Shown here piece after piece: positions 1,982-56,100 of a stretch of DNA of 64,000 nt. Position 1 is the stretch's first letter. Every line of letters begins with the position of its first letter. The notes below the pieces were generated by a model. That model was not told the origin of the DNA and did no database searches. It saw only the letters and a list, made by a program, of their open reading frames with translations. The translations under genes were made by a program, and so were the position numbers. The stretch is from assembly GCA_964058805.1 (NCBI GenBank), contig CAXKVV010000022.1, positions 744,001 through 808,000 of the forward strand, read 5' to 3'. This DNA is from Schoenoplectus triqueter. Lineage: Eukaryota > Streptophyta > Magnoliopsida > Poales > Cyperaceae.

Positions 1982-3820
1982 GTGAACAAAAAAGGTAATA
2001 GAAGGTTCTTAACAGCCCCTTATTCACCTCAAAAAAATGGAGTGACGGAAAGAAAAAATCGAACCATACTCGACATGGTTCAAAGCATGTTAAAGAGCAA
2101 AAATATGTCGAAGGAATTTTTTGGCCGAAGCGGTGAGGTGTGCGGTTTACTTATAAAATTGATGTCCTACGGCGAGTTTGGAGAATATTACCCCACAAGA
2201 AGCATGGTGCGGTGTGAAGCCATCAGCAGTTCATTTGAAGGTGTTCGGAAGTGTGGCTTATGCTCACATTGAGATCAAAAGCGTACAAAACTTGATGACA
2301 AGAGCAATAAGCTGATTTTTATTGGCTATGATGAGAAATCTAAGGCGTACAATATTTATGATCCGCTTACTAAAAAGGTACATGTGAGTTGTGATGTGCA
2401 GGTCAATGAAAAAAGCATGTGGAATTGGAGTTCCATGGAAGAGATGTCTCATGAAGAAGGAAAAGAAGCGACATCAACAATTATTTCTACACCGACAAGT
2501 ACAACTACATCGACAACATCACAAGCCGAACCATCTTCACCTTTATCCGATGATGAAGATGAGCCAAGGACACCAAAGACAAGGAATTTGCGAGAAATAT
2601 ACGAGGCGACAAGTGAATTGCATTTGGTGTGTCTTCTGGCGGATGCGGAGGACATCATATTCGAGCAAGCCGTAAAAGATGAGAAGTGACAAGCCGCTAT
2701 GCAAGCGGAGATGAAAGCAATTGAGAAAAATGACACTTGGGAACTTGCGACGTTGCCTAAGGGTCACAAGCTGATTGGTGTTAAATGGATTTATAAAAAA
2801 AAGATGAATGTGCAAGGTGAGGTTGAAAGATATAAGGTGAGAATAGTGGTGAAAGGGTACAAGCAAAAGACGGGGATTGATTATGAAGAGGTGTTTGCCT
2901 CGGTAGCAAGAATGGAGACAATCTGACTACTAATCTCGTTGGCGGCTCAAAACAAATAGAGCATTTTTCAAATGGACGTGAAATCGGCGTTTCTAAATGG
3001 AGTGCTTGAAGAAAAAGTCTACATCAAGCAACCTTCCAATTATATGAAAGTTAACAAAGAGCACACGGTGTTGAAGTTAAAGAAGGCGTTGTACGGGTTG
3101 AAGTAAGCGTCAAGGGCATGGAACACTCGAATTGATGCATACTTCAAGGAGCATGGGTTTGTGCAATGCCCATATGAGCATGCGCTATATTTGAAGGTAT
3201 AAAAAATGACATTTTATTTGTGGCCTTGTATGTAGATGATTTGATTTTTACGGGAAATAATAGAGATATGATTGAGAAGTATAAGTTGGAAATGACAAAG
3301 GAGTTTGAGATAACCGATTTGGGTCTCATGTCTTATTTTTTGGTGTTAGAAGTGAGACAAAAAAATTCTGAAATTTTTTGGGGTTAGAAGTGAGACAAGA
3401 AAATTCTAAAATTTTTGTAGTTTGAGATAACCTATTGTTACTTTGTCCACATGTGAAACGGAGTATGTTGCCGCATCTTCTTGCGTATCTGACTCTCTTT
3501 GGCTACACAAGTTACTAAAGAAGATGAACTTTTCTCAAGAGAAGGCAACGAATATTCAAGTGGATAACAAGTCGGCAATTGAGTTGGCGAAAAATCCGAT
3601 GCATCATGAAAGGAGCAAGCACATAGATGTGCGTTTTCACTTCATACGAGAACATGTGAAGAATGACGATGTGGAGATGAACATAGATGTGCATTTTCAC
3701 TTCATACGAGAACATAGATGTGCGTTTTCACTTCATACGGACATATTCACCAAACCACTACCGGCAAAATTCTTCAACAAGTTCAAGAATTTGCTCAAGA
3801 TGCAAGCCAGAAATAATTAA
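1982..3820 (+). pseudogene. Broken copia A pol (integrase, RT, RNase H)
   Basis: Fragments in several frames follow copia pol order. At 2010-2120 is the end of the integrase core with NGVTERKNRT, whose E is the third catalytic acid. A chain from 2280 to 2690 gives the integrase C-terminal region and a low-complexity Ser/Thr linker. At 2699-2926 is the RT start (GVKWIYKKK, then VVKGYKQK, usually VAKGYxQ). At 2973-3090 is MDVKSAFLNG, and at 3220-3250 the RT active site reads YVDD. At 3443-3820 is RNase H (STCETEYVA, DNKSAIELA, SKHIDVRFHF, DIFTKPLP). Stops interrupt the RT, including one in the usual YGLKQA motif. Between about 3420 and 3443 a stretch of coding sequence between RT and RNase H is missing. 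It is beyond function. Confidence 0.88.
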
Positions 3821-10668: not shown

Positions 10669-11028
10669 AGAGTCCGTTTGGCAAATTAAGGAATAGCTCT
10701 GGAAGAGTGATAGAATAATATTTTTTTTGGAAGAGTGATATTTTTGACTATTCGGAAAAGCGAAAATATCGTTTGACAGTTGTTACTCATAATAGTTAAA
10801 ATATGAATAATTATGATACTAATAATGATGATGATGATGATAATAGTACAATAATAATCATAATAGTAAGATAATAATAATAATAATAAAGTAATAAAAA
10901 ATAATCATAATAAATAATAATATTATAATAGTAATATAATAAAACTATAAACATAATCATAATATAGTAATATAATAATAAAAAATTATAATTACAATCA
11001 TAATTATAATAATATAATAATAATAATA

Positions 11029-11430
11029 GAGTGAGGCTATGGTGCTTCGCGAAGCACAAAACCTCCCGTGCTTCGCATCCGTATCTCGAATTTGAAAGTT
11101 CATACGCTCGATCCAAACCGTTGAACATGATCTTCATATTGAAATATCTTTGGAGATCAAATTTTATATTTTTTTGAATTTTTTGCTATTTTTTAAATGA
11201 GTATAAAATTTGCTGATCTAACGATTTCTGCACCATCCAAAACTAGCGATTTTGTACCCATCTAAAAAATAGCAAAAAAATTCAAAAAAATATAAAATTT
11301 GATCTCCAAAGATATTTCAATATGAAGATCATGTTCAACCGTTTGGATCGAGCGTATGAACTTTCAAATTCGAGATACGGACGCGAAGCACGGGAGATTT
11401 TGTGCTTCGCGAAGCACCATAGCCTCACTC
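11029..11430. mobile_element. Foldback / MULE-like MITE with ~170-bp arms
   Basis: Both ends read GAGTGAGGCTATGGTGCTTC inward, and the arms stay complementary for about 170 bp with few mismatches, around a ~60-bp centre. Within each arm GTGCTTCGCGAAGCAC is itself a palindrome. Both flanks are ATAATAATA, compatible with a 9-bp Mutator-type duplication, but the surrounding DNA is an ATA repeat, so this proves little. A transcript through it would form a long hairpin. The central part shows no coding sequence. Confidence 0.85.
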
Positions 11431-11971
11431 ATAATAATAAGTAATCATAATTTTAATAATATAATCATAATATAATAATCATAATCATAATCATGATAAT
11501 AGTAATTATAGTCATAATCATAATAATATAACCATAATCATAATCATAATAATATAATAATAAAAATATAATCATAATCATAAATATAATTATAAATAAT
11601 TATAATTATAATAATATAATAATAAATTAATCATCGCTACAATCAACATATAATAATATAATACAACATAATAAAATAATAATAAGTATTAATAATCATA
11701 ATCATAATCATCATAATATAATAGTATAATAATAAATAATCTTGATCATAATAATATAATAATAAACTAATTATATTTATATTCATAATATAATAATATA
11801 ATATTAAAATTATATTTATAATAATAATAAATAATAATCATAATTTTAATATAATAATAAATTATATTCATAAATATAATATAATAATATAATAATACTA
11901 AATCTTAATCATAATCATAATATAATAATATAATATAATATAATCAAACAATAATCGCTATTCCGACGAGA

Positions 11972-13848: not shown

Positions 13849-16800
13849 TGTCACACCCCAGAAATAAATGAATCGGGTTAGGGGTGCTAAATCCCGCCAC
13901 GTACGCACGACGAGACGTGCGTACGAAAGGCTAAATGAATAAAATAAGAAAATCACAGAATAAACAAAACAATAATAATATAGTATACATGACCATACAG
14001 TCCAGAATGAACAAAGAGAAATACAACGCCGACATCGGCGGGGCTAGCTCCATCGGAATAGGCAGCAAAATCTCTCAAAGAAAAACCCAAAAGAAAGAAA
14101 TAAAACTCGAAACCCGATAGATCCTAATCCACTACCCTGCTCACATGCGGAAGCGGCGAAGCATCTCTGTCACCACACAGGACTGTCCCTAGCCCTCACT
14201 CTAGCCAAAAATCCCGAACCTGAAAATACCTGGATCCCACAACCACCGTGGAAACGTGAGTAATTTTATAAATTACTCAGTACGGATTTAGATCCAGCCT
14301 TAAGATTTAATCTTCTTTCCTAGACTGGACCCAAAAACCGATACTGATGTTTGAACAGCGAAAGTAATATTGATAAGTGAATATAATAATATTATTATGC
14401 ACATTGACCTACATGATATGATATGATATGGTAAAGAAACCCGAAATAGAAAATTCTGTGGAAATAATAATAAAATATAAAGTATAAGATACAAGAGTCA
14501 AACACCCGTAATAAATACCCAGATTGTAAATTTATCAGACTCATCCCGAGCGGGCACTACCAGGGCCCAACTTACTAACTTAGGACTTTATGTTTGTGCA
14601 GCGACAACGCCGCACAAACGACAATTCGGGCTCCCGGGGCGATGACGCCCTAGGAGAGTGAACGGCTAATAAAGCACGTACTCTGGTCTGCTGAATCTGG
14701 TAATTCACCTTTCAAAATATAAACAAATGGATATAATATGTCTTCAGTTGCCATATCGTAAAAAGGAGATAACTACCCGTGAATTAACAAAACGGAAACA
14801 AATGGGAGCCTACACTGGACCAACCAAGGGTCAGAGGACCGCATCCCGTAAAAGTATCAAAAACGAGATATAACAAAGGGGAGCCTACACTGTACCCACT
14901 AAGGCCAGTGGACCGCATCCCGACTTTCTCTGTACCAACTACGGGCCAAAGGAGAAAGCCCTTCGGACAATATTAGGATCCTAAATACGCCGGATAAATA
15001 TAATAATATAGTATCACGAAATAGATTCCAATCTCGGATATGGCCGCCCACACTAAATACTGAAGTACACGGTATCCTAAATCGCTCAAATTTGGATTGA
15101 AAATTTAATCATATAAAGAATAATAATAAGATATATAATAAAGATCAAAAGAAAACACTCCGACACAGCCGAACCCGCCAAATGACGGGATCGGTGGATA
15201 ATCCGACAGGCGAGGATGCGCAGTGCATATACAGACCGGTGGGTCCCACGGGCCTATGGGTCACCGTACGTAACCACAACGGTCTGGTTATGCAAGGCAA
15301 CTCTGACTGAGAATTACCCGGTCCGCCTCTCAGCACTCCCATGCATTTAATGCATGATTAACTACCTGACTTAATTAATAATTTGTGATAGTAATAATAT
15401 TTTCCTAATAATTATAATCTTCAACTTGGATTATTTAAATCTATCTGTTCCTATCTCGGGACTATTTCCCGAGATCCTACTCCTATCCTGTCTACGTGCA
15501 GTATGACATGATATGACATGTAAAAGCGGGTATGTCTCGAATATGCTGGTCAATTTACCGGATGCAGATGACAGATCAGATTTTGGTCTCTACTCAAAGT
15601 TTGGTCAGAAAATACCGCAATTCAGTTTTTATTTAAAAACGGTTTTGTTTTCGGTTTGGGTTCCTATTTCTGAAGAAAGAAAATTAAATCCCAGGAAACC
15701 ATACCTGGGAATAATTTGGTTAGGTCAGAACGTCAAATTGCTAAATCTCGGGTGGCGCATCACGATCTTGTCAGATGAGCCGTTTCATCTCGAGTGTATT
15801 CGTTTGTCGGCTCGTCAAGATATTTTCGAAAACCTATGAAGTCAGAAATAGATTAAATGGACGAGTATCATATTCACATTGGGTCTGGTTAGGTCAGGGT
15901 ATACCGGACTCAAAGGCGGGAGTATTATTATTTGAAAATTATAATCATATTATGTTTATTTTGATAAATATAATTAACTAAATTTTATTTAGATTTATTA
16001 AGTTATCTTAACATTATCACTTAATTATTTTAATTATAATTAGAAAATTCAATTATTTAGAAATAGAGAAATTAATTAATATATATTTATAGTATTTGTT
16101 ATTATCATTATTGTTTCCATTTGTATTCTTAATAAATAGAGAAATCGATTAATATATATATTTTATAATATAAATTTTTATTGTATTTTAATTATTATTT
16201 TGTAAATCTTAATTATTTAAATTATTTTCTTCAATTATATTTTATTTACATACTAATATTATTTTTATAATTTATAGGTTTGTTATATGAAAATAAAATA
16301 GAAGTGACAGACATTAACAAAACTTGATTAACTTAATTTAATTAAATTAAATATTATTATTTTAGTAAGTGTGTTGGTGTTTTGAGATTATATTATTCGA
16401 TTAATGTAACTAATTTAATTTATTTAAAATAATTAAGTTAGCTTAATGTTATCCCTTAATTAATTTAATTATAATTAGAATAATTAATTATTTAGACATA
16501 AAGAATTTGATTAATATATATAATATTATATAATTAATATTATTCTTATTAAAAATAGAGAAATTGATTAATATATATTTTATGTTATAAATTATTATCA
16601 TACCTCAATTATTACTTTAAAATTTCTAATTATTTATATCATTCTCTTTAATTATATTTTATTTTATATATTTATATTATTTTCATCAATTAGAAAATAT
16701 ACTACATAAAACTAGAATTTAAATTAAAATAAAAACTAAATGAAAGTATTTAAATTCAATTAACTTAATTTTAAATTAAACGTTTTTATTTATTTAAACG

Positions 16801-17407
16801 TGTTGGTGTTTTAATGTGTTTGGGATCATAGGCTGCCTCCGAAACCATTGTATTTGTTCGGATTTTCATTATTGAGACAGATCATATAATCATCTCCCAA
16901 ATTCAGGTTTAAGTATTAATCAATTATTAGTTGCGCACGTTTTTAAGTCTACGGCACTTGCTAATTAGTCAATACATACTTTCAACCCGCTTATACCTTT
17001 TGGCCCATTTAACTCGATCAATTTATTTTTCGTATCCGTTCAGTTATGATTATCCGTCAAGGTGTTATTTTGCGCATATAACCCTTTAAGAGGTTATTAC
17101 CACAAATCCATTTAGCCCCTTGAATTTATCAGTTTTCACAATTTGACTCCTAACTCATACGAGCTTTACAAATCAGCCCCTACATTCATTATATTTTCAA
17201 TTCAGTCCCTGACAAGGGATATACCATATCAACAAAATTGCATAGTAGCAACAGAGGGACAAAAAGGTATACGGGTATAACAGTCAAGATCAGCAATCAC
17301 AATATGCCAAACAACAAAGCGAAGTCAGCAGGTGTCAAAACCCCACAATGGCACAGCTCAATTCAGCAAGAGGAACCAAGTCCGCAAAATTAGGGGCACC
17401 CCCACTT

Positions 17408-17684
17408 CACTGGTACCGACCGGTACCAGTGTACCAGGGGCTCAATTCGCGACAGCAAAATAACATAGTAACTAAAGGCATCACAAAATTGAACCAGACA
17501 ACTCGTACACTGGAAGAACATACCAAACACAAATTTCAGTACCAACAGAGTCAAAAGGGGCAGAAACCAGGCAGCAAGAATTGCAGAGGCATCACAGCCG
17601 ACACAAGAGACCAGCGAGGCCATAGAGGGAAAATAAGGGCACAGAACTAAGTCCTCGCTTCACTGGTACCGATTGGTACCAGTG
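17408..17684. repeat. Two GGTACC near-palindromes inside the LTR
   Basis: A 24-bp near-perfect palindrome starting CACTGGTACC and ending GGTACCAGTG lies at 17408-17431, and a second copy with one or two changes lies at 17661-17684. A degraded third (CCATGGTACCACTGGTACGG) is at about 17804-17823. The other LTR repeats them at 24438-24461 and 24691-24714. They could be protein-binding sites or relics of an internal duplication; the sequence does not decide. Confidence 0.75.
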
Positions 17685-18414
17685 TACCAAGGAACGACAA
17701 TAATCCAAGAAAAGACAATTACAACCAGCACTGGGTCAGGGATCAATCAAATGCAGAACAACAATTCTAAGCAACCAATAACCAGCAACGAAACTACACA
17801 CAGCCATGGTACCACTGGTACGGATTGATACCGCCCCAAACAACAAGCAAGCAACCACTACAGGGAAAATTCACAAATACAAGTGCGGCTCAGCCGGCAC
17901 AAGGCCTACACGGCCAGAGGAGGGAAAGGTGTTACCAGGGAAGGCACAAGGTAGCAAGGGAATCAATTACAAGAGGGGCGGCAAGGGAAGAAAAGCGCGT
18001 CAGAGGGTGGCTGGCTCGGTTCTGATGGCGCCGAGGAGTGTGGCCAGCGGGGTGGTTTGAGACGGAGGTTGTTGGTCTCGGTTCAGTGATCGGAGCGGAG
18101 AGCTACAAGATCGAGTTAGTGGGGCCGATTCTGGTCGGAGGTGGATGACCCTGGTGCAGCCACGCCCAAACTGGTTGTGTTGTCAACTCCAAGGACAACA
18201 GGAAGAAAGGTGAGGTTGCTGCGGTGTTCGGCTGAGAGCTCAGCCAAGCTCGATCTGGGGGGTTTAGCGGCAACTCTGATTTATTACAGAGGGGAAAAAA
18301 AGAGAAAAAGGGGTTTACGGAAATGAGAAGAAGAAAGAAGGGGTGAGGGATGGTGTCGCCAGCGGAAGTCAGAGGGGGAAAAAAGAAAAGGAAAAAAGGG
18401 TTTCTGGGTAGGGA

Positions 18415-18430
18415 GGGAGAGAGAGAGAGA

Positions 18431-18472
<42 letters not shown>
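18415..18472. repeat. (GA)n-rich tract in LTR
   Basis: A GAGAGA tract broken by GGGA, which reads as CT repeats on the element's own strand. The other LTR has it at about 25445-25495, six bases shorter. CT-rich leaders are common in plant 5' untranslated regions, so it may mark the transcribed leader. Confidence 0.85.
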
Positions 18473-18473
<1 letters not shown>

Positions 18474-19090
18474 GAGGGAAATGAATGGAGAGAGAGAGTG
18501 AGTGATGGATGGGATGGGTGTTAAAGAGGAGAGAGGGATGAGATTGGGATCTTCTGTGGCGGATTTGTACGGTCGTTTGCGTGACAGTCATAAGTCTTAA
18601 TTTAATTTATCCATTTCTTATTTTATTGATGATTCGATTACCAGAACTTGTCGCAACTAACCGATCTATATTCTTTAAATTTAATCGTTAATTTAGATTT
18701 TATAAATCCATAATTTTTCTTTTAATTAATTATTATTTTATTCTGTTGTAAGAGACGAGTTTGACTTTAATATTTTAGATTTCGTTATAAATGTTATTTC
18801 TTTAATTTAAATTAGATCAACATGATTTGTGTTAGTTATTGAATATAATGTTATAAAATTTATATTTTTATAACTTTTAATTTGATCTTTGGTTCTATTA
18901 TTAGATATCTATTCTCACTTAGCTTTATTTATCGATTTATTATTATTATTATTATTATCATTATTATTATTATATATATATTCTTTTATATCATTAATTA
19001 ATAGTTCAAGTTATTTATTAATTTATGCTAAATTATTTTAATTATCCTCTTAATTATTATTGTTGTTTAATTAAATTTTATGGTTTAACA

Positions 19091-19129
19091 TTTCACCCCC
19101 CCTCAAATGAATCGTTTCGTCCTCGAAAC
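19091..19129 (-). other. Polypurine tract and chromovirus-like pol-end signature
   Basis: On the minus strand, TTTGAGGGGGGGTGAAA (19107-19091) directly abuts the LTR start TGTTAAACC. Just before it is GTTTCGAGGACGAAAC (19129-19114). The polypurine tract primes plus-strand synthesis, so it fixes the element's orientation. The preceding phrase is a known neighbour of the polypurine tract in Tekay/Del-type gypsy elements. Confidence 0.85.
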
Positions 19130-20813
19130 GAACCACTTGATTGACAAGTTATTATTACATTCACTTTATTGTAATTAAATAACTTTCGAATATATATGGG
19201 GTTTAATACTTTGACGCTTACATTAAGGTTTCATAAATATCATGTGCAGCGCTTCATTTATTTATTAAATAATAAAACTTCTATTATTTTTACTAGTACT
19301 TTAATAATGATTATTATGCCATTTATTTAAGCTCTTTCGATTTTGATTAGTGAATTCCAATTTAAGAACATCTTGATAATATTTTTTTTTTACATTTGCT
19401 TAAATTATTGAGGCATTACTGTTTTTTTTTCCCTAATTAGATTATCAGGTTTAAATACTATTGCAGGCATTAGTTTTGATTTCTAATTTATTTGATATAC
19501 AAATGTTAATTATATATATGTACCTATTATCATTTAAATATTTTGTGGCACATAAGTCAATGTGAAATATTAATAAGCAGTATAACTTTTGCGGGACAAT
19601 TAATATGGTAGTGTGCACGTCTTAAATTTGACATTTGTTGAGGAATCATTGAACTCGGAGAGGATCAATTTGGTCAAATACGAGTCAACCTGATCAGTAC
19701 GACACTAATCTCAGAAACAAAGTTGATCAAAGATCTAGGTGAAGTATATATCGAAAGAATATAACTCAAACGGATAAACACAATTCACACTTGGATCAAC
19801 AGATCGAAAAAATCAAGATAGACATGCGGAAGCAATTTGATCAAAGAGAATTTACTCAAATTTAAATTGGTTTGGACCTATATGTATCACTAAAGCTGAA
19901 GATAACAATACGACGTATATCGAACATCAAGGAATGGCTCGAATAAGAAGTCGAATATCACGTAGATACAAATCTCTTAGAATCTCGTGTAGTTAAATGA
20001 TAATTTGTTTAGATAATTTCCAAAAAGAGTTGAATTAAACTTGACATCATCGAATGTTTAGTCGATGTCAAGCGTGATAGTGAAATTTATGGGCTAATTA
20101 CATATTAACGGTTATCCATATCTGAAATGATAATTTATTTCTACGTCCTAGAATCGATTAAGTTGATCCTAAATTGATTAAGGTTGAATCGACTAGATAG
20201 TTCAGCGATAACACATAAAAAATTTATTAATTTCAAGAAGCCACGATTTAAGTGAGTGAATTATCCTTAGCTAATGCCTACAGATCTCCTCGAATTAAGT
20301 TAAGAGTAGATAACATTGATAGCAAAATATAAATGTTTAGATATGAAGATTAACTTAAATGAAAATTATAATTATTAATTATTATTATTATTATTATTAT
20401 TCTTTAATTAAAATTTTTATATTCTTATTAGTTCTATCAAATTGGAAAATTTAATTATATATATATATATATATACATATAATTACGTTGCTATTTTTTG
20501 TCAGAAAAAAAAAATCGGGTCGAGACGGAAAACGAAAAATCTGGAAAAAGTAATTTCAATTTAAGTTGTCAAAATCTATATTATTAACTGTTTGTAATGT
20601 ATTTATTAAGTTTTATCACGTCCGAGTAGTGGGATCCATAAGGACCGCGAAGTCACGCGTGTACTAACGTGCAACGCTAGCCCATTTTCCTAGACATACC
20701 CCTCACAGACCTATGTCAAGTACATATTATTGTTTTATTTATTTATTCATCTTCTCGGGATTTTCTAGATGTTACCCTAGCATGATTTATATGAAATCGG
20801 ATTATAAATTCAC
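19130..20813 (-). other. Interior of LARD-like element, no gag-pol found
   Basis: About 1.7 kb of AT-rich DNA without an open frame of useful length on either strand and without gag, protease, RT or integrase motifs that I can see. The part beside the primer site (about 20580-20813) is less AT-rich and may hold packaging signals, by analogy with other non-autonomous elements; this is inference. An AT microsatellite lies at about 20455-20478. Confidence 0.7.
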
Positions 20814-20825
20814 GCTCTGATACCA
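20814..20825 (-). other. Primer binding site of LARD-like element
   Basis: The minus strand reads TGGTATCAGAGC, complementary to initiator methionine tRNA, eight bases from the end of the adjoining LTR. It is the clearest proof that the element runs on the minus strand, opposite to its copia host. Confidence 0.93.
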
Positions 20826-20833
20826 CCGAAGGA

Positions 20834-23800
20834 TGTCACACCCCAGAAATAAATGAATCGGGTTAGGGGTGCTAAATCCCGCCACGTACGCACGACGAGA
20901 CGTGCGTACGAAAGGCTAAATGAATAAAATAAGAAAATCACAGAATAAACAAAACAATAATAATATAGTATACATGACCATACAGTCCAGAATGAACAAA
21001 GAGAAATACAACGCCGACATCGGCGGGGCTAGCTCCATCGGAATAGGCAGCAAAATCTCTCAAAGAAAAGCCCAAAAGAAAAAAATAAAACTCGAAACCC
21101 GATAGATCCTAATCCACTACCCTGCTCACATGCGGAAGCGGCGAAGCATCTCTGTCACCACACAGGACTGTCCCTAGCCCTCACTCTAGCCAAAAATCCC
21201 GAACCTGAAAATACCTGGATCCCACAACCACCGTGGAAACGTGAGTAATTTTATAAATTACTCAGTACGGATTTAGATCCAGCCTTAAGATTTAATCTTC
21301 TTTCCTAGACTGGACCCAAAAACCGATACTGATGTTTGAACAGCGAAAGTAATATTGATAAGTGAATATAATAATATTATTATGCACATTGACCTACATG
21401 ATATGATATGATATGGTAAAGAAACCCGAAATAGAAAATTCTGTGGAAATAATAATAAAATATAAAGTATAAGATACAAGAGTCAAACACCCGTAATAAA
21501 TACCCAGATTGTAAATTTACCAGACTCATCCCGAGCGGGCACTACCAGGGCCCAACTTACTAACTCGGGCCTTGCCTAAGCGGGCACTACCAGGGCCCAA
21601 CTTACTAACTTAGGACTTTATGTTTGTGCAGCGACAACGCCGCACAAACGACAATTCGGGCTCCCGGGGCGATGACGCCCTAGGAGAGTGAACGGCTAAT
21701 AAAGCACGTACTCTGGTCTGCTGAATCTGGTAATTCACCTTTCAAAATATAAACAAATGGATATAATATGTCTTCAGTTGCCATATCGTAAAAAGGAGAT
21801 AACTACCCGTGAATTAACAAAACGGAAACAAATGGGAGCCTACACTGGACCAACCAAGGGTCAGAGGACCGCATCCCGTAAAAGTATCAAAAACGAGATA
21901 TAACAAAGGGGAGCCTACACTGTACCCACTAAGGCCAGTGGACCGCATCCCGACTTTCTCTGTACCAACTACGGGCCAAAGGAGAAAGCCCTTCGGACAA
22001 TATTAGGATCCTAAATACGCCGGATAAATATAATAATATAGTATCACGAAATAGATTCCAGTCTCGGATATGGCCGCCCACACTAAATACTGAAGTACAC
22101 GGTATCCTAAATCGCTCAAATTTGGATTGAAAATTTAATCATATAAAGAATAATAATAAGATATATAATAAAGATCAAAAGAAAACACTCCGACACAGCC
22201 GAACCCGCCAAATGACGGGATCGGTGGATAATCCGACAGGCGAGGATGCGCAGTGCATATACAGACCGGTGGGTCCCACGGGCCTATGGGTCACCGTACG
22301 TAACCACAACGGTCTGGTTATGCAAGGCAACTCCGACTGAGAATTACCCGGTCCGCCTCTCAGCACTCCCATGCATTTAATGCATGATTAACTACCTGAC
22401 TTAATTAATAATTTGTGATAGTAATAATATTTTCCTAATAATTATAATCTTCAACTTGGATTATTTAAATCTATCTGTTCCTATCTCGGGACTATTTCCC
22501 GAGATCCTACTCCTATCCTGTCTACGTGCAGTATGACATGATATGACATGTAAAAGCGGGTATGTCTCGAATATGCTGGTCAATTTACCGGATGCAGATG
22601 ACAGATCAGATTTTGGTCTCTACTCAAAGTTTGGTCAGAAAATACCGCAATTCAGTTTTTATTTAAAAACGGTTTTGTTTTCGGTTTGGGTTCCTATTTC
22701 TGAAGAAAGAAAATTAAATCCCAGGAAACCGTACCTGGGAATAATTTGGTTAGGTCAGAACGTCAAATTGCTAAATCTCGGGTGGCGCATCACGATCTTG
22801 TCAGATGAGCCGTTTCATCTCGAGTGTATTCGTTTGTCGGCTCGTCAAGATATTTTCGAAAACCTATGAAGTCAGAAATAGATTAAATGGACGAGTATCA
22901 TATTCACATTGGGTCTGGTTAGGTCAGGGTATACCGGACTCAAAGGCGGGAGTATTATTATTTGAAAATTATAATCATATTATGTTTATTTTGATAAATA
23001 TAATTAACTAAATTTTATTTAGATTTATTAAGTTATCTTAACATTATCACTTAATTATTTTAATTATAATTAGAAAATTCAATTATTTAGAAATAGAGAA
23101 ATTAATTAATATATATTTATAGTATTTGTTATTATCATTATTGTTTCCATTTGTATTCTTAATAAATAGAGAAATCGATTAATATATATATTTTATAATA
23201 TAAATTTTTATTGTATTTTAATTATTATTTTGTAAATCTTAATTATTTAAATTATTTTCTTCAATTATATTTTATTTACATACTAATATTATTTTTATAA
23301 TTTATAGGTTTGTTATATGAAAATAAAATAGAAGTGACAGACATTAACAAAACTTGATTAACTTAATTTAATTAAATTAAATATTATTATTTTAGTAAGT
23401 GTGTTGGTGTTTTGAGATTATATTATTCGATTAATGTAACTAATTTAATTTATTTAAAATAATTAAGTTAGCTTAATGTTATCCCTTAATTAATTTAATT
23501 ATAATTAGAATAATTAATTATTTAGACATAAAGAAATTGATTAATATATATAATATTATATAATTAATATTATTCTTATTAAAAATAGAGAAATTGATTA
23601 ATATATATTTTATGTTATAAATTATTATCATACCTCAATTATTACTTTAAAATTTCTAATTATTTATATCATTCTCTTTAATTATATTTTATTTTATATA
23701 TTTATATTATTTTCATCAATTAGAAAATATACTACATAAAACTAGAATTTAAATTAAAATAAAAACTAAATGAAAGTATTTAAATTCAATTAACTTAATT

Positions 23801-25460
23801 TTAAATTAAACGTTTTTATTTATTTAAACGTGTTGGTGTTTTAATGTGTTTGGGATCATAGGCTGCCTCCGAAACCATTGTATTTGTTCGGATTTTCATT
23901 ATTGAGACAGATCATATAATCATCTCCCAAATTCAGGTTTAAGTATTAATCAATTATTAGTTGCGCACGTTTTTAAGTCTACGGCACTTGCTAATTAGTC
24001 AATACATACTTTCAACCCGCTTATACCTTTTGGCCCATTTAACTCGATCAATTTATTTTTCGTATCCGTTCAGTTATGATTATCCGTCAAGGTGTTATTT
24101 TGCGCATATAACCCTTTAAGAGGTTATTACCACAAATCCATTTAGCCCCTTGAATTTATCAGTTTTCACAATTTGACTCCTAACTCATACGAGCTTTACA
24201 AATCAGCCCCTACATTCATTATATTTTCAATTCAGTCCCTGACAAGGGATATACCATATCAACAAAATTGCATAGTAGCAACAGAGGGACAAAAAGGTAT
24301 ACGGGTATAACAGTCAAGATCAGCAATCACAATATGCCAAACAACAAAGCGAAGTCAGCAGGTGTCAAAACCCCACAATGGCACAGCTCAATTCAGCAAG
24401 AGGAACCAAGTCCGCAAAATTAGGGGCACCCCCACTTCACTGGTACCGACCGGTACCAGTGTACTAGGGGCTCAATTCGCGACAGCAAAATAACATAGTA
24501 ACTAAAGGCATCACAAAATTGAACCAGACAACTCGTACACTGGAAGAACATACCAAACACAAATTTCAGTACCAACAGAGTCAAAAGGGGCAGAAACCAG
24601 GCAGCAAGAATTGCAGAGGCATCACAGCCGACACAAGAGACCAGCGAAGCCATAGAGGGAAAATAAGGGCACAAAACTAAGTCCTCGCTTCACTGGTACC
24701 GATTGGTACCAGTGTACCAAGGAACGACAATAATCCAAGAAAAGACAATTACAACCAGCACTGGGTCAGGGATCAATCAAATGCAGAACAACAATTCTAA
24801 GCAACCAATAACCAGCAACGAAACTACACACAGCCATGGTACCACTGGTACGGATTGATACCGCCCCAAACAACAAGCAAGCAACCACTACAGGGAAAAT
24901 TCACAAATACAAGTGCGGCTCAGCCGGCACAAGGCCTACACGGCCAGAGGAGGGAAAGGTGTTACCAGGGAAGGCACAAGGTAGCAAGGGAATCAATTAC
25001 AAGAGGGGCGGCAAGGGAAGAAAAGCGCGTCAGAGGGTGGCTGGCTCGGTTCTGATGGCGCCGAGGAGTGTGGCCAGCGGGGTGGTTTGAGACGGAGGTT
25101 GTTGGTCTCGGTTCAGTGATCGGAGCGGAGAGCTACAAGATCGAGTTAGTGGGGCCGATTCTGGTCGGAGGTGGATGACCCTGGTGCAGCCACGCCCAAA
25201 CTGGTTGTGTTGTCAACTCCAAGGACAACAGGAAGAAAGGTGAGGTTGCTGCGGTGTTCGGCTGAGAGCTCAGCCAAGCTCGATCTGGGGGGTTTAGCGG
25301 CAACTCTGATTTATTACAGAGGGGAAAAAAAGAGAAAAAGGGGTTTACGGAAATGAGAAGAAGAAAGAAGGGGTGAGGGATGGTGTCGCCAGCGGAAGTC
25401 AGAGGGGGAAAAAAGAAAAGGGAAAAAGGGTTTCTGGGTAGGGAGGGAGAGAGAGAGAGA

Positions 25461-25497
<37 letters not shown>

Positions 25498-26117
25498 GAG
25501 GAAAATGAATGGAGAGAGAGAGTGAGTGATGGATGGGATGGGTGTTAAAGAGGAGAGAGGGATGAGATTGGGATCTTCTGTGGCGGATTTGTACGGTCGT
25601 TTGCGTGACAGTCATAAGTCTTAATTTAATTTATCCATTTCTTATTTTATTGATGATTCGATTACCAGAACTTGTCGCAACTAACCGATCTATATTCTTT
25701 AAATTTAATCGTTAATTTAGATTTTATAAATCCATAATTTTTCTTTTAATTAATTATTATTTTATTCTGTTGTAAGAGACGAGTTTGACTTTAATATTTT
25801 AGATTTCGTTATAAATGTTATTTCTTTAATTTAAATTAGATCAACATGATTTGTGTTAGTTATTGAATTTAATGTTATAAAATTTATATTTTTATAACTT
25901 TTAATTTGATCTTTGGTTCTATTATTAGATATCTATTCTCACTTAGCTTTATTTATCGATTTATTATTATTATTATTATTATTATCATTATTATTATTAT
26001 ATATATATTCTTTTATATCATTAATTAATAGTTCAAGTTATTTATTAATTTATGCTAAATTATTTTAATTATCCTCTTAATTATTATTGTTGTTTAATTA
26101 AATTTTATGGTTTAACA
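20834..26117 (-). repeat. 5' LTR (minus orientation) of LARD-like element, 5284 bp
   Basis: Nearly identical to the copy at 13849-19090. By eye I find about 14 substitutions, a 45-bp tandem duplication at about 21536-21610 that the other LTR lacks, a GA tract six bases shorter and one extra TTA unit. Those indels account exactly for the 42-bp length difference. Confidence 0.93.
21536..21610. repeat. 45-bp tandem duplication present in one LTR only
   Basis: CGGGCACTACCAGGGCCCAA and the bases after it occur twice here, 45 bp apart. The other LTR has one copy (about 14550-14580). It arose after insertion, or was lost there after insertion, since the two LTRs are made identical at insertion. Confidence 0.9.
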
Positions 26118-26122
26118 AATAG
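26118..26122. repeat. Target site duplication AATAG, right copy
   Basis: AATAG follows the final CA of the LTR at 26117, matching 13844-13848. The copia gag reading resumes across it. Confidence 0.95.
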
Positions 26123-47270: not shown

Positions 47271-48608
47271 CTATTCATGGGGCTTAGGTGAAAGCACCCA
47301 GTGCTGACCGTGGGGCCGCACTGTCAGCCCCTTCATCTTGGCAAACAGAGTGACTGCTCGCCTGACCCCCCTATTATCGGCCACAGTGAAATAGTCGTGC
47401 CCAAATAACACACCCCCAGGTCTGAGCACGGCATATGCTCGGTTTATGTCAGCCCATGCCGAGTGGAAGTCGTGCCCCGCATCCACCTCAATCAAGTCTC
47501 CATATATCCCCCATTCACATAATGCCATAAGTGCTGAACCAGTTGAGAATGGGATTGGGATGATGCGGTGGGATTCGCTGGCTGCTTTGACATTTGCCAT
47601 GAACTGTTGTAACAGCAATGAATCAGCGTGCCAGTTCTGGGGTACATCACGGTGGAATCTGCAACATCGAAATGGAATTGATTACCTTTTTTTACATGAA
47701 GTTAATTAATCTTTTGCCATATTATATTGGATCATAAGCTACAAACTGTACTGTCATCACCACATATCTAAAAAAAGGAAATACTCAGACTATGATATAT
47801 ATAGTTAATCCGGGGGCATGCATATGGAAATATTTAAGACCCTTCCTTATGTACCAGGACAGGACCAGCTCAACGTTCTTAAACTAACTTAATTAAAGAA
47901 CACAAAAATGGTTGGGCTTTATTTTATTTTTATCTCAGTAGGGTTAGGAAAACTTTTCAAAACTATTCATTTTCATAAAAACTATAATTGTCTTGAACTT
48001 TATATAACTTACCGGAGGCGGAAATTAGGCCATCCACGAAAATCATCAACCGCGAGAATTAAAGTCGAAGGCAGGGAAATGTTATTTGTGACCCCTGCCA
48101 TGTGTAGCGCCGACGCACCTAAAAATGACCCGAGCTCAATTATGACACCCGGTCGAACCACTTCGATCAAGTCACGGAACACAGCCCCAGTAGAACCCCA
48201 CCCACGTGGGTGCTCTGCCGGTTTATGAATAAGTGACTTGACTTCTGAAGATGGAAAGTCTTTATATGGTTGAATTCCTTCAAACATGTTCGTTTGGATT
48301 GTGTTAATGATCTCCGATTGTGGTATTGCATTTGCGCAGCGTGTTTTGAATTGGAGAAGATCATGTGGAGGTGGCACGGTCCGCGATTCATGTTCTTGTA
48401 CTGATAGGGTTTTTATGTCAGGATCAGTCATGGTGCAATTGGACTGCAATTGGGGTTGGAAGTTGATTTGGGAAATTGAGGACAGATAACCCATCATATA
48501 ACCAGCAGAGAAGAGGAAGAGGAAGAAGGCAGCACGGGCTAAGTGAAGCCGGAGTTTGAATTGTGTAAGAATTGGTGATTGCGGTGACGGCAGCCATGCC
48601 GGTTTCAT
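47271..48608 (-). CDS. Membrane-anchored SAM methyltransferase-like protein (Methyltransf_24 type)
   Basis: Two exons on the minus strand, 48608-48013 and 47658-47271, joined across a GT-AG intron within a CGA codon, give 327 residues. The start is the first ATG of the open frame. Residues ~24-46 (ARAAFFLFLFSAGYMMGYLS) form one hydrophobic segment after a basic N-terminus, as in type II proteins of the secretory system. A variable stem follows. The Rossmann-type domain has VIIELGSFLGASALHMAG at ~155-172, in place of motif I, then LILAVDDFRGW at ~183-193, IYGDLIEVDAGHD at ~250-262, and VLRPGGVLFGHDYF at ~277-289. These are the usual blocks of plant class I methyltransferase-like proteins of this length. 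The substrate cannot be told. The gene looks intact and is convergent with the coiled-coil gene. Confidence 0.9.
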
Positions 48609-48707
48609 GGTGTAGCTGTTAATTCGGAAGATTTAGAGATTTGTCAGAGTGATACTCCAACTTGGCAAGGGGTTGGGCTGTTGGTGGTGTGTTTGTTAAT
48701 TGTACCT

Positions 48708-53124: not shown

Positions 53125-56100
53125 ATGGCAGTGGTCATAGAGAGAGAGGAATGGGAGATCCCCTCCTCTGCTTACTATCTCCTCTTCTTCTCCTGCTTCG
53201 CTTCGCTCTTCGTCTTTCCTTTCTTCTCCAGTCGATCCTCTTCATTCTCTCCCCGTGCTTTCGATCATGCCCAGGCTTCGTCTTTCCTCCGTTTCCAAAA
53301 GGGCTTCTTGCTCGTCTATTCTCTTGCTTCAGGTACGTCGATTGATGCTGGTCTTGTTCAGGGCCTGTAACAGTTGATAACGCTTTGTCAGGTTCAATAC
53401 CGGTTAATGCCAGTGTTCGAATTTCACATTTTCAATAAGATGAGGACTGATATGCTAATGTTCCAGTTAAGTGGATTATTTTTTCCTGTAGAAATTACAA
53501 TTTGCACACATCACCCTATAAAGAACCAGCAGTACTACCAGTGGGACAACTCTGTCGTTAAAATAACTTGCTATAATTATCATAAGGAAAAAAATGACTT
53601 CCCTTTTGTTTGCAAATACTGTCAGTGGTGGGTGGCATGCAATTGGTATGGGGAGAGGACGAGTTTGTGCGGTTTGGGCTGAGTAGAGAACAGATTGCAC
53701 TTGTGTTTTCTGTGGGTTCTGCTGTCTCTTTCTTTATTGGTTCATTTACTGGAATCTTTTCTGATATAACGTAAGTTGCACACAGAATATTTTTCGATTA
53801 CATTCAACATCTACTGTTTTTTTGCACCTAATACCTACACTTGCTTGCATGGAGATCCAGATGTTTTGGTTCTCAATTTGGATAAAACTGAACTAATTAA
53901 GAAAAGTCAAGTCAATAAAAAGACTAACATTGCCATCAATATACAAGCCTGTGTTCTTAATCCTTATTAATACAGAGAATATTCATGGTACTTGCTAGAT
54001 ATTCTGAAAAATAAAAACCACTGTATTCACAATTAATAGTTGCTTGAACTATTAGAAGGTCGGAACATTTAAACTAAACTGCAATTCACCTCAATCAAAT
54101 GTTATGATATATCTGATGGGGAAAAACAGTCAAAATTTTATAGAATTTACCTTGTTCATTCCAGTGAACTATGTTTGTTTGACTGAAATATACAAGTCTG
54201 CTGATCTGGTTGAGTGTTATTATTTTAGCTCTAAAAGCGAACTGACGGGCTGCACCTCACACAAAGCACCACTTAAATTCTAATCATTTGGTGTCTATTT
54301 TTCTTACAGAGGTCCGAGGAAAGCATGCCTACTATATTGCATGTTTCATCTTCTCGCAGGCATGTTAAAATGCAGTAACCGTCTTACATTTGTGTGGCTA
54401 GCAAATGCTCTTGTGGCAATTTCATCTTCTCTTTTCTCCTTTTGTTTTGAGACTTGGATGGTCACTGAACATGAGAAGGTTCCTCTCTTTTATTATTATA
54501 ATTAGAATGGTGATGATGATGATGATGATGATATTTATTATGGTGGGGATCCCTTGACAACTATCTATTTTGACAACCTTGACAACCAACTTTATATAAA
54601 TTCATAAAAAATCTTAAAATGGGAAAAAAACTTTACACACGTATTTTTACAATTATGGTTTGCTTTTCAGATCTGGTGCAATTTGAGTGTCATTTTGATA
54701 TTCCATCAAAGACCATCAAAATTATATAACAATTTTAATAGTTCAAATTTAATGGACTTTGATGGAATATCAAATGACACTCAAATTGCACCAAAATTGA
54801 AACACAATCAATCCTTAAGTGTAAGAATATGTTTGTAAAGTTTTGTTCCATTTTTAAGATTTTGTATGAAACACAATCAATCAATAAAGTTGGTTGTCAA
54901 GGTTGTCAAAATAGATAGTTGTCAAGGGATCCCCACCCTTTTTTAATTGTTCTTTATCATGTCATCTTCAGTATTTTTTATTCCATTCGCACCTCTTATA
55001 TGCACAAGAAGTGTTACGTCTGCCATACGAAACATGGATCTTTATTGTTTTCCTTGCCAATTGGAAAATTCCAAGATTACCCTTCCATCCTAATGTCCCT
55101 GAATAAGTGATAAAGAAGAAGATGCCTAAAGGTAGGCAGAGAGTGTCATGTTTGTCTTTTGCATCGTTTGAATCAGGTAGATGAGATTTTCTCATCTTCC
55201 TTGCTAATTTTGAAACTTCAGTCCTTTTTGACAAAATTATTTTTCTTCATCATGTTAGAAGATAGCAGAGCTAAACTTCCAATAATAATCATATTTTTTT
55301 TTTGCTTTTCTTTTGAAAATGGAAGCAAGGGCACAGAAAGGATCTCTTAACCAACACATTTTGGCTGATGACATTTTTCGAGTCAATTTCTCTTCTTGGG
55401 AGCCAAATCCTGGCAAATTTAATAATAACAGATATCAAAGATGGAACTTCATTTCCTTTTGCTTTAGCAGCCATGTTGGCCATTCTGGGGTTTTTTTATA
55501 TCAGGAGGAAATGGAGTAAAAGTCAGGAATTGTTGGCCATTTGGAGCTACCGCAAGTCATTTTTATCTCATGTTCTTCGAGGTAAATTTGTTAAGTGTTT
55601 GACATTCTTTTGCTCCTCTAAATGGATCATGAGTATTCAACATGGTTATTTAGGGAAACAAAGTATACGTGCAAAATTTCATTGAACAATACATGTACAT
55701 AATTTACCGAAAATCTCAAGTTTATTTCCTAGTAAAGAATTAGATATATTGATATTGTTTCTCTCTCCCTGCCATTCTCATAGACAAGAAAATATGGGCT
55801 TTAGGCTGGGCTCAAGCAAGCATTCATTTTTCGACGTCCAATTTTTGGTTGTTATGGGCACCTACAATTGTGGTATGTTCTTATCTCTATAACTATTTTC
55901 CATTGAAATTATTACCAAGAAATAATTTAGAAATGACTCGCAAAAAAAAAAAAACTCAGGATCAAGGTTAAAGCAATTGGCTTGTATCTCAAGTGTTGAG
56001 CTGCTTAATACTATAAATTAGAGGCTCTGGTCTTAAACTTCAAGCCCATAAGTCAGGAATTATGGATATGCAAGCAGTGAGCTCTTTCAGTGAAACAAGA

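Follow-up and report, generated by a model that had tools for sequence, protein, structure and literature searches.

LARDs, such as Sukkula of barley, are described as large LTR elements with a non-coding interior that are assumed to move in trans, and their interiors have been described as having conserved RNA structure (PMC7215508). In wheat, several Sabrina variants carry unrelated sequence in place of the gag-protease part, and partner switching has been proposed for the Angela sub-families, in which LTR and interior trees conflict (PMC9744471). For wheat Cereba and Quinta, the stated pairing criteria are the same PBS, the same LTR termini and the PPT (PMC11302176). Del chromoviruses had LTRs of 1,143-4,831 bp in a ten-genome survey, and a type A U5 att motif, with GGG at -8 to -10 and conserved positions -1, -2, -3 and -6, was described for this lineage (PMC4029996).

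The window, i.e., the whole 64,000-nucleotide stretch of DNA analyzed here, contains a complete and structurally intact LTR element in minus orientation at positions 13849-26117. Its anatomy, its gene-less relatives and the presence in the same genome of gag-pol copies sharing its cis signals are demonstrated. From these we conclude that the element is very likely a young, non-autonomous LTR retrotransposon moved in trans by a Tekay/Del-like gag-pol partner, with which parts have been exchanged. The features are as follows.

20834..26117, minus strand: 5' LTR (element orientation), 5,284 bp
13849..19090, minus strand: 3' LTR (element orientation), 5,242 bp
19091..20833, minus strand: interior, 1,743 bp, without gag or pol; longest frame 56 aa
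13844..13848, no strand: target-site duplication (TSD) AATAG, left copy
26118..26122, no strand: TSD AATAG, right copy
20814..20825, minus strand: primer site (PBS) TGGTATCAGAGC, 12 nt, Met-CAT tRNA; LTR end 8 nt away
20684..20833, minus strand: leader adjoining the PBS, candidate packaging region, 81-91% identity to gag-pol copies C505, C912, C2081 and C806
19114..19129, minus strand: inverted repeat GTTTCGAGGACGAAAC upstream of the PPT, present in 17 of 18 PPT-side loci
19091..19104, minus strand: polypurine tract (PPT) GAGGGGGGGTGAAA
20834..22740, minus strand: U5-side LTR module of the 5' LTR, 93.9% identity to gag-pol copy C806
22740-22719, minus strand: inverted repeat TCCCAGGtacggtttCCTGGGA, start of the U5-side module in the 5' LTR
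13849..15710, minus strand: U5-side LTR module of the 3' LTR, end placed from the offset between the two aligned LTRs (7,030)

The element thus adds another case to a familiar class of genomic parasites and is LARD-like, being a large LTR element with a non-coding interior and belonging to a multi-copy family with related interiors. Barley LARDs usually have a longer interior than the 1.7 kb found here. A further difference from LARDs is that the likely partner of the present element is seen in the same genome. Likewise, the gene-less and gag-pol kinds agree in the features by which Cereba and Quinta were paired (PBS, LTR termini and PPT). However, Quinta is described as encoding GAG (PMC11302176), and a similar difference applies to the wheat Wilma/Sabrina/WHAM group, for which short proteins (Sabrina variants) and GAG plus protease (WHAM) are described (PMC9744471); the present element encodes nothing recognizable. 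Among the titles listed for literature searches naming sedges, none concerned such a gene-less/gag-pol pair.

All components of an intact LTR retrotransposon were found, namely, an LTR pair with TG..CA ends, a TSD, a PBS and a PPT. The preliminary description, made from the sequence alone, had reported near-identical direct LTRs, an AATAG duplication, an initiator-tRNA primer site and a PPT (here 19104-19091), the last two in minus orientation, and each of these was recovered at the positions listed above. The PBS is complementary to the 3' end, with CCA added, of tRNA-Met(CAT), the gene for which was taken from the same genome, where it was the sole match to the initiator-type pattern searched. 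LTRs make up 85.8% of the element, in agreement with the earlier figure of more than 85%. However, what was then called extreme holds for the short interior alone, as the gag-pol partner also has very long LTRs and only the interior is reduced.

No protein-coding capacity was recognized in the interior, in which the longest stop-to-stop frame is 56 aa. A Pfam profile scan of 10 of 16 interior frames gave nothing above the cut-off (best E = 0.034), and tblastn with pieces of gag, PR-RT-RH and INT from the same family gave a best match of only E = 3.3, compared with 1.8e-26 to 0 for two positive-control loci. The earlier statement that gag and pol are absent from the interior is thus borne out. 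Hidden genes were also considered for the LTRs, and were rejected in both regions on the basis of the frames scanned, as eight LTR frames likewise gave nothing above the Pfam cut-off. No Rfam match reached the gathering score anywhere in the window.

Matches to the PBS junction numbered 37, and 30 of these were examined as loci: gag DNA was present in 10 and absent from 20. Such counts are among the matches listed, genome searches scoring about the best 40, and the assembly contains duplicate contigs. The distance from PPT to PBS was approximately 1.5-2.5 kb in eight pairs and 5.1-5.2 kb in five gag-pol pairs. The gag-pol copies with the same LTR ends that the preliminary description had predicted were found in the same assembly, as were other copies with matching ends. 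An example is C505, a gag-PR-RT-RH-INT copy with LTRs of ~5.39 kb and an interior of ~5.15 kb. A second apparently fresh gag-pol insertion, C440, was rejected as a duplicate contig or allele, since 1,579 bp including flank are identical to C505.

The element and the gag-pol copies have in common the LTR ends, the PBS, the leader, the pre-PPT inverted repeat and the PPT. The PBS was present in 30/30 loci, the U5 end with its spacing in 29/30 and the pre-PPT inverted repeat in 17/18; as loci were chosen via junction matches, the presence of these signals is partly by construction, whereas their co-occurrence in loci with and without gag is not. A G-run of five or more occurred at the PPT of 8 of 10 gene-less and all 8 gag-pol loci. 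These agreements are also what would be seen if a gag-pol copy had suffered a one-off internal deletion and had been caught young, but we regard this explanation as highly improbable. As gag is absent from two-thirds of the PBS-side loci (20/30), the element belongs to a gene-less family. Furthermore, past the initial 250 nt, stretches shared between a gene-less interior and one of the 10 gag-pol loci were at most 60 bp long; the interior is therefore other sequence rather than cut-down gag-pol. Gene-less interiors are instead linked with one another as a patchwork. The middle of the present interior was found on six contigs, with longer matches to other elements at 75-84% identity, and these related interiors elsewhere in the genome refute a simple deletion derivative.

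The partner encodes gag with a zinc knuckle (Pfam), protease-RT-RNase H in a single 817-aa open frame, and an integrase with SH3_Tf2-1, for which the integrase core match was below the Pfam cut-off. A chromodomain-like match was found at the same place in seven of eight integrase pieces, at 20.4-22.8 bits against a cut-off of 25.1. The U5 end GGGGTGTGACA agrees with what was described as a type A att, as a sequence motif only. Together with long LTRs and the Gypsy domain order, these features are consistent with a Tekay/Del-like chromovirus, as had been guessed for the parent, with the chromodomain-like matches all below the cut-off. Named gag relatives were from Rhynchospora and Carex (42-48%), and unnamed metagenome proteins reached 93%. 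For host genes, the closest matches with a species name were to Rhynchospora pubera (72%) and Juncus effusus (61%), so that the source is probably a cyperid. Both LTRs of the element (5,242 and 5,284 bp) and those of C505 (~5.39 kb) are longer than the 1,143-4,831 bp reported for Del (PMC4029996), while those of sister copy C1150 (4,481 bp) are within that interval. The interval comes from a survey and does not define the lineage, and no length record is claimed.

Movement of the gene-less element by proteins borrowed in trans from this partner is the most likely reading of the sequence data. The element LTR would produce an RNA containing leader, PBS and PPT, which Gag of the Tekay/Del-like chromovirus would package via the common leader. 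Promoter activity and packaging are assumed here, as most of the element's U3-side LTR and interior does not resemble the gag-pol copies used for comparison. The partner reverse transcriptase would then copy the RNA, primed by Met tRNA, and its integrase would insert the product via the common LTR ends, giving the 5-bp duplication. The same dissimilarity of U3-side LTR and interior could suggest that another LTR family, and not the gag-pol copies found here, moves the element, and a Met PBS is common, occurring in 39% of the plant elements surveyed (PMC6317226). However, LTR ends, leader, inverted repeat and PPT jointly match the gag-pol family found here, and mosaic LTRs link the two kinds, which makes a helper from another family quite improbable.

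The family is mosaic, which is the new aspect of this locus. Across 1.9 kb on the U5 side of the LTR, the present element (C22) is 93.9% identical to C806, the LTR start of which is unreliable (no TSD match), so that no C806 LTR length is claimed and comparisons from the junction onward are independent of that start. Over the same 1.9 kb, C362, a gene-less copy, matches C505 at 96% identity. The pairing of each gene-less copy with a gag-pol copy of its own has 134 sites in its favor, versus 6 and 4. Directly upstream of the common junction, gene-less copies resemble each other, as do gag-pol copies. The junction lies at the identical place in C22 and C362, at window position 22740, with a small inverted repeat and a donor-like site (CAG|GTACGG). 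Because the mosaic LTRs tie gene-less to gag-pol copies, an exchange of parts between parasite and helper is well supported, perhaps taking place in mixed particles. Both kinds of RNA in such particles would occasionally swap parts, mainly the U5-side 1.9 kb, and this would keep the parasite's ends compatible with the helper.

A more far-reaching reading, which we put forward tentatively and consider somewhat less probable than its negation, is that gene-less and gag-pol copies form one reassorting population, with the U5-side 1.9 kb as a cassette that is exchanged via strand transfer inside mixed particles at the fixed junction and the gene-less parasite continually re-acquiring its helper's end. 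If so, position 22740 would mark an RNA start or processing site, and co-packaging would be recorded in the genome itself. The junction is one candidate RNA start; pyrimidine-rich stretches, which lie 470-800 bp inside the LTR in 5 of 6 LTRs inspected, are an alternative.

Gene conversion among genomic copies could also produce mosaics and near-identical LTRs, in which case the insertion would be older than it appears. In wheat, both template switching and gene conversion have been named as routes (PMC9744471), and LTR copies are numerous in this genome (191-373 first-look candidates in several searches and 755 in one). We consider this unlikely, however, as a junction at the same place in two copies is unexpected from scattered conversion tracts, the TSD is perfect and the differences between the LTRs are spread over their full length. 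These differences comprise 13 substitutions (11 transitions and 2 transversions), close to the ~14 sites counted by eye, and three indels of 45, 6 and 3 nt. The earlier age estimate of ~0.1 million years was reproduced at 1.3e-8 (96 ky; Poisson 51-163 ky), but this rate is borrowed, and 7e-9 gives 178 ky. The element thus appears young and recently inserted.

When the joined flanks (300 nt) were used as query, 23 genome rows were obtained, 19 of which crossed the join at 66-86% identity; the remaining four comprised both halves of the window itself and two short fragments. None of the 19 was a near-identical match, i.e., an empty allele was not seen in the assembly. As 19 rows span the joined flanks, the element is nested inside an older repeat of Copia type, the flanking domains being gag PF14223 and rve PF00665.

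One genome thus holds an intact young element without genes, the gag-pol partner that probably serves it and their common cis signals. What the parasite may need is narrowed to a short list by the features that both kinds retain, namely, leader, inverted repeat and ends, and the mosaic LTRs offer a testable record of parasite-helper exchange in a sedge-like plant. The family may plausibly still be moving, because the ~4.48-kb LTRs of C1150 are nearly identical, differing by one mismatch and one 8-nt gap.

Self-comparison of the window placed the element's long terminal repeats (LTRs) at 13849-19090 (5,242 bp) and 20834-26117 (5,284 bp), flanked on both sides by AATAG, in agreement with the two near-identical direct repeats of about 5.2 kb and the target-site duplication (TSD) of the preliminary description. 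Its by-eye figure of about 14 LTR differences conveyed this near-identity, but the exact count is 13 substitutions and three indels. Together the LTRs account for 85.8% of the 12,269-bp element, as the earlier share of over 85% implied. The order of its parts is as follows:

minus strand: TGTTAAACC ... GGGGTGTGACA, eight bases, TGGTATCAGAGC, interior, GTTTCGAGGACGAAAC, GAGGGGGGGTGAAA, second LTR

The 12-nt primer-binding site (PBS) is complementary to the 3' terminus of a tRNA-Met(CAT) gene found in this genome, which bears out the proposed initiator-tRNA primer site in minus orientation.

A Copia-type gag (PF14223) lies in the flank to the left of the element and an integrase core (PF00665) in that to the right; the element is nested within an older Copia repeat. 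The joined flanks with one AATAG returned at least 23 genome rows: 19 crossed the join at 66 to 86% identity, two were the window's own halves and two were short pieces. Since none of the 19 was near-identical, no insertion-free allele is visible in the assembly among the matches listed. Elsewhere in the window, self-comparison detected two fold-back repeats that are perhaps MITE-like, at 10985-11476 (about 450 nt, 89% self-complementary) and 54542-54937 (about 400 nt, 82%). A host methyltransferase-like gene (47271-48632, minus strand; PF13578 in one exon) is closest to Rhynchospora pubera (72%), then Juncus effusus (61%), and this one gene suggests a cyperid-like host.

The reported lack of gag and pol between the LTRs was upheld by both searches made. 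The longest reading frame of the interior is 56 aa, and no Pfam match above the cut-off was obtained for ten of 16 listed interior frames or for eight LTR frames (best E=0.034). Likewise, the gag, PR-RT-RH and INT pieces of the element's own family found no match in the interior (best E=3.3), while the same pieces do detect two control loci.

The assembly (82.1 Mb in 2,086 contigs) holds many relatives, whose counts are lower bounds because each genome search scored no more than roughly its 40 best matches. At least 37 matches to the PBS junction and at least 19 to the polypurine tract (PPT) junction were found, and the 19 include the outer end of an LTR in the window itself; other copies with matching ends, which the preliminary description had sought, thus exist. 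The gag-pol copies it predicted with the same LTR ends are also present: among the 30 of 37 PBS-junction loci in the gag census, gag DNA was present in ten (782 to 1,366 of 1,366 nt) and absent in 20. Some contigs are duplicates. C505 and C440, one locus among the ten gag loci, share 1,579 identical bp including flank and represent a duplicate contig or allele, so copy counts may be inflated; two of the 20 gag-less loci, both on contig C380, are identical.

The domains of the gag-pol kind were read from C505, which contains gag with a zinc knuckle and a single 817-aa open frame spanning zinc knuckle, protease, RT and RNase H. In its integrase, the zinc-binding and SH3_Tf2-1 domains score above the cut-off; the core and the chromodomain score below. 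Six of seven further integrase pieces matched a chromodomain (7/8 overall, every one below the cut-off); the exception, L051, is shorter at its end. These domains are consistent with a Tekay/Del-like partner. With C505 LTRs of about 5.39 kb (TSD GTATC), long LTRs characterise the family, and only the interior of the gene-less element is short; the LTR proportion earlier called extreme therefore stands as a number, but reflects a reduced interior. Del elements of ten genomes have LTRs of 1,143 to 4,831 bp in one survey (PMC4029996), a range exceeded by the C505 LTRs, with no record implied.

Spacing separates the two kinds. PPT-to-PBS distances, computed from junction matches (C202, at about 15 kb, excluded), were about 1.5-2.5 kb in eight pairs (C22, the element itself; C1150, C1459, C362, C2062 twice, C1365 and C1587) and 5.1-5.2 kb in five gag-pol pairs (C505, C912, C413, C806 and C2081). 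U5 ends on one contig lay 6.7-7.0 kb apart in C22, C1150, C1459 and C362, and 10.3-10.5 kb apart in C505, C912, C2081 and C101; pairs on C1463 (5.3 kb), C101 (7.2 kb) and C362 (4.9 kb) fell outside both classes. Same-orientation junction pairs likely represent LTR-interior-LTR-interior arrays; these are of the gene-less family on C77 (14275, 20898) and C380 (4196, 10589), 6.4-6.6 kb apart, and of the gag-pol type on C2081 (PPT junctions 135220 and 145725), 10.5 kb apart. A solo LTR of 5,452 bp (L070, C835:3100-8800; TSD TTGTT) has the element's U3 type (88% over 625 columns), and the outer edge of a further LTR copy overlaps with a MULE transposase frame (PF10551; L005 628-1644, minus strand, on C2061).

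Both kinds carry the same signals. All 30 loci contain the PBS 12-mer, and 29 of them the U5 end at its usual spacing. Because the query that found these loci spans both signals, what carries weight is their presence in loci with and without gag. The leader adjoining the PBS is 81-91% identical between the element and C505, C912, C2081 and C806. An inverted repeat ahead of the PPT was retained in 17/18 loci; in L046 both outer bases are altered together, and by eye pairing is kept. Past the first 250 nt, the gene-less interiors (ours and 20 loci) share at most 60 bp with any of the ten gag-pol loci, and compared among themselves they form a patchwork. The 601-bp middle of our interior gave at least eight rows on six contigs. 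All six also carry a PBS or PPT junction of the family, so the matches listed reveal no source of the interior outside it.

Exchange between the gene-less and gag-pol kinds is well supported by mosaic sites, junction queries, trees and the ends of two gene-less copies. The last 1.9 kb of the element's LTR (20834-22740) is 93.9% identical to gag-pol C806 and 87.8% to C505, whereas the same block in gene-less C362 is 96.0% identical to C505 and 87.2% to C806; 134 informative sites group C22+C806 against C362+C505, versus 6 and 4 for the other groupings. Immediately upstream of the junction at 22740, whose position is identical in all four LTRs, agreement follows kind (C22/C362, 77.8% over 550 columns; C505/C806, 75.5% over 1,178 columns). 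Farther upstream, cross-kind matches occur (C362 with C505 and C806, about 570-600 columns at 72-76%; C22 with C806, 347 columns at 69%), so this part is not wholly separate by kind. The best 40 of 326 candidates for the element's junction included gene-less C22, C853, C77 and C362 and not one of the ten contigs with gag. The best 40 of 191 for the gag-pol junction included gag-pol C505/C440, C912, C234, C101 and C202 and also gene-less C380, so LTR type follows gene content closely but not invariably. Mapped on the U5+leader tree, the gag label must change at least four times across well supported branches, and the tree's five changes were equalled or undercut in 7/500 shuffles; the U3-side tree needs two (0/500 as low). 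The label is thus clustered, yet not a single clade, on both. Finally, gene-less C2062a and C1365 have U3 ends closest, among gag-pol copies, to C505 (76-77%) and U5 ends closest to other copies. Exchange may have taken place either in particles or between genomic copies.

The element's LTRs differ by K = 0.00249 per site. Substitution rates of 1.3e-8 and 7e-9 per site per year, borrowed from outside this plant, give ages of 96 ky (Poisson 51-163 ky) and 178 ky; the earlier estimate of about 0.1 million years is reproduced at the faster rate, but depends on that choice. The LTRs of gene-less C1150 (TSD ACTAT) differ over 4,481 columns by a single mismatch and an 8-nt gap, which at the borrowed 1.3e-8 corresponds to about 9 ky, with 48 ky as the approximate upper bound. 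Judged from LTR divergence, the family has likely moved recently.

On its sequence characters, the element is a LARD-like non-autonomous element with a putative Tekay/Del-like partner, and its kind and logic are already known. Close parallels appear in wheat (PMC9744471): Sabrina variants carry unrelated sequence in place of the gag-protease part, and LTR and interior trees of Angela sub-families conflict, for which partner switching via template switching or gene conversion was proposed. No title on this element family was found in the open-licence literature among the matches listed.

Two further LTR features were observed. Gag-pol type LTRs contain an exon-like 133-bp block (L066 1886-2018, minus strand, equal to C505 LTR 3354-3486; also L067 and L071-L089) with an acceptor-like start (AG/GTGATA), 30 codons plus TAG and a donor-like end (CCCAG/GTACGG). 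Across 21 aligned copies (one of 22, not oriented, left out), its variation was 0.031 versus 0.072 upstream (97 columns) and 0.061 downstream (59 columns), and 0.019/0.022/0.038 by codon position; an LTR-internal exon would be unusual in a chromovirus. Both LTRs of the element also contain a CT-rich stretch (element position 580-800, window about 25317-25537). In each LTR it yields a Ser/Leu-rich frame of 165-167 aa, and it may mark where transcription begins instead of being coding sequence. C505, C806, C1150 and C835 have comparable stretches at corresponding positions, with none in C362 at the threshold used.
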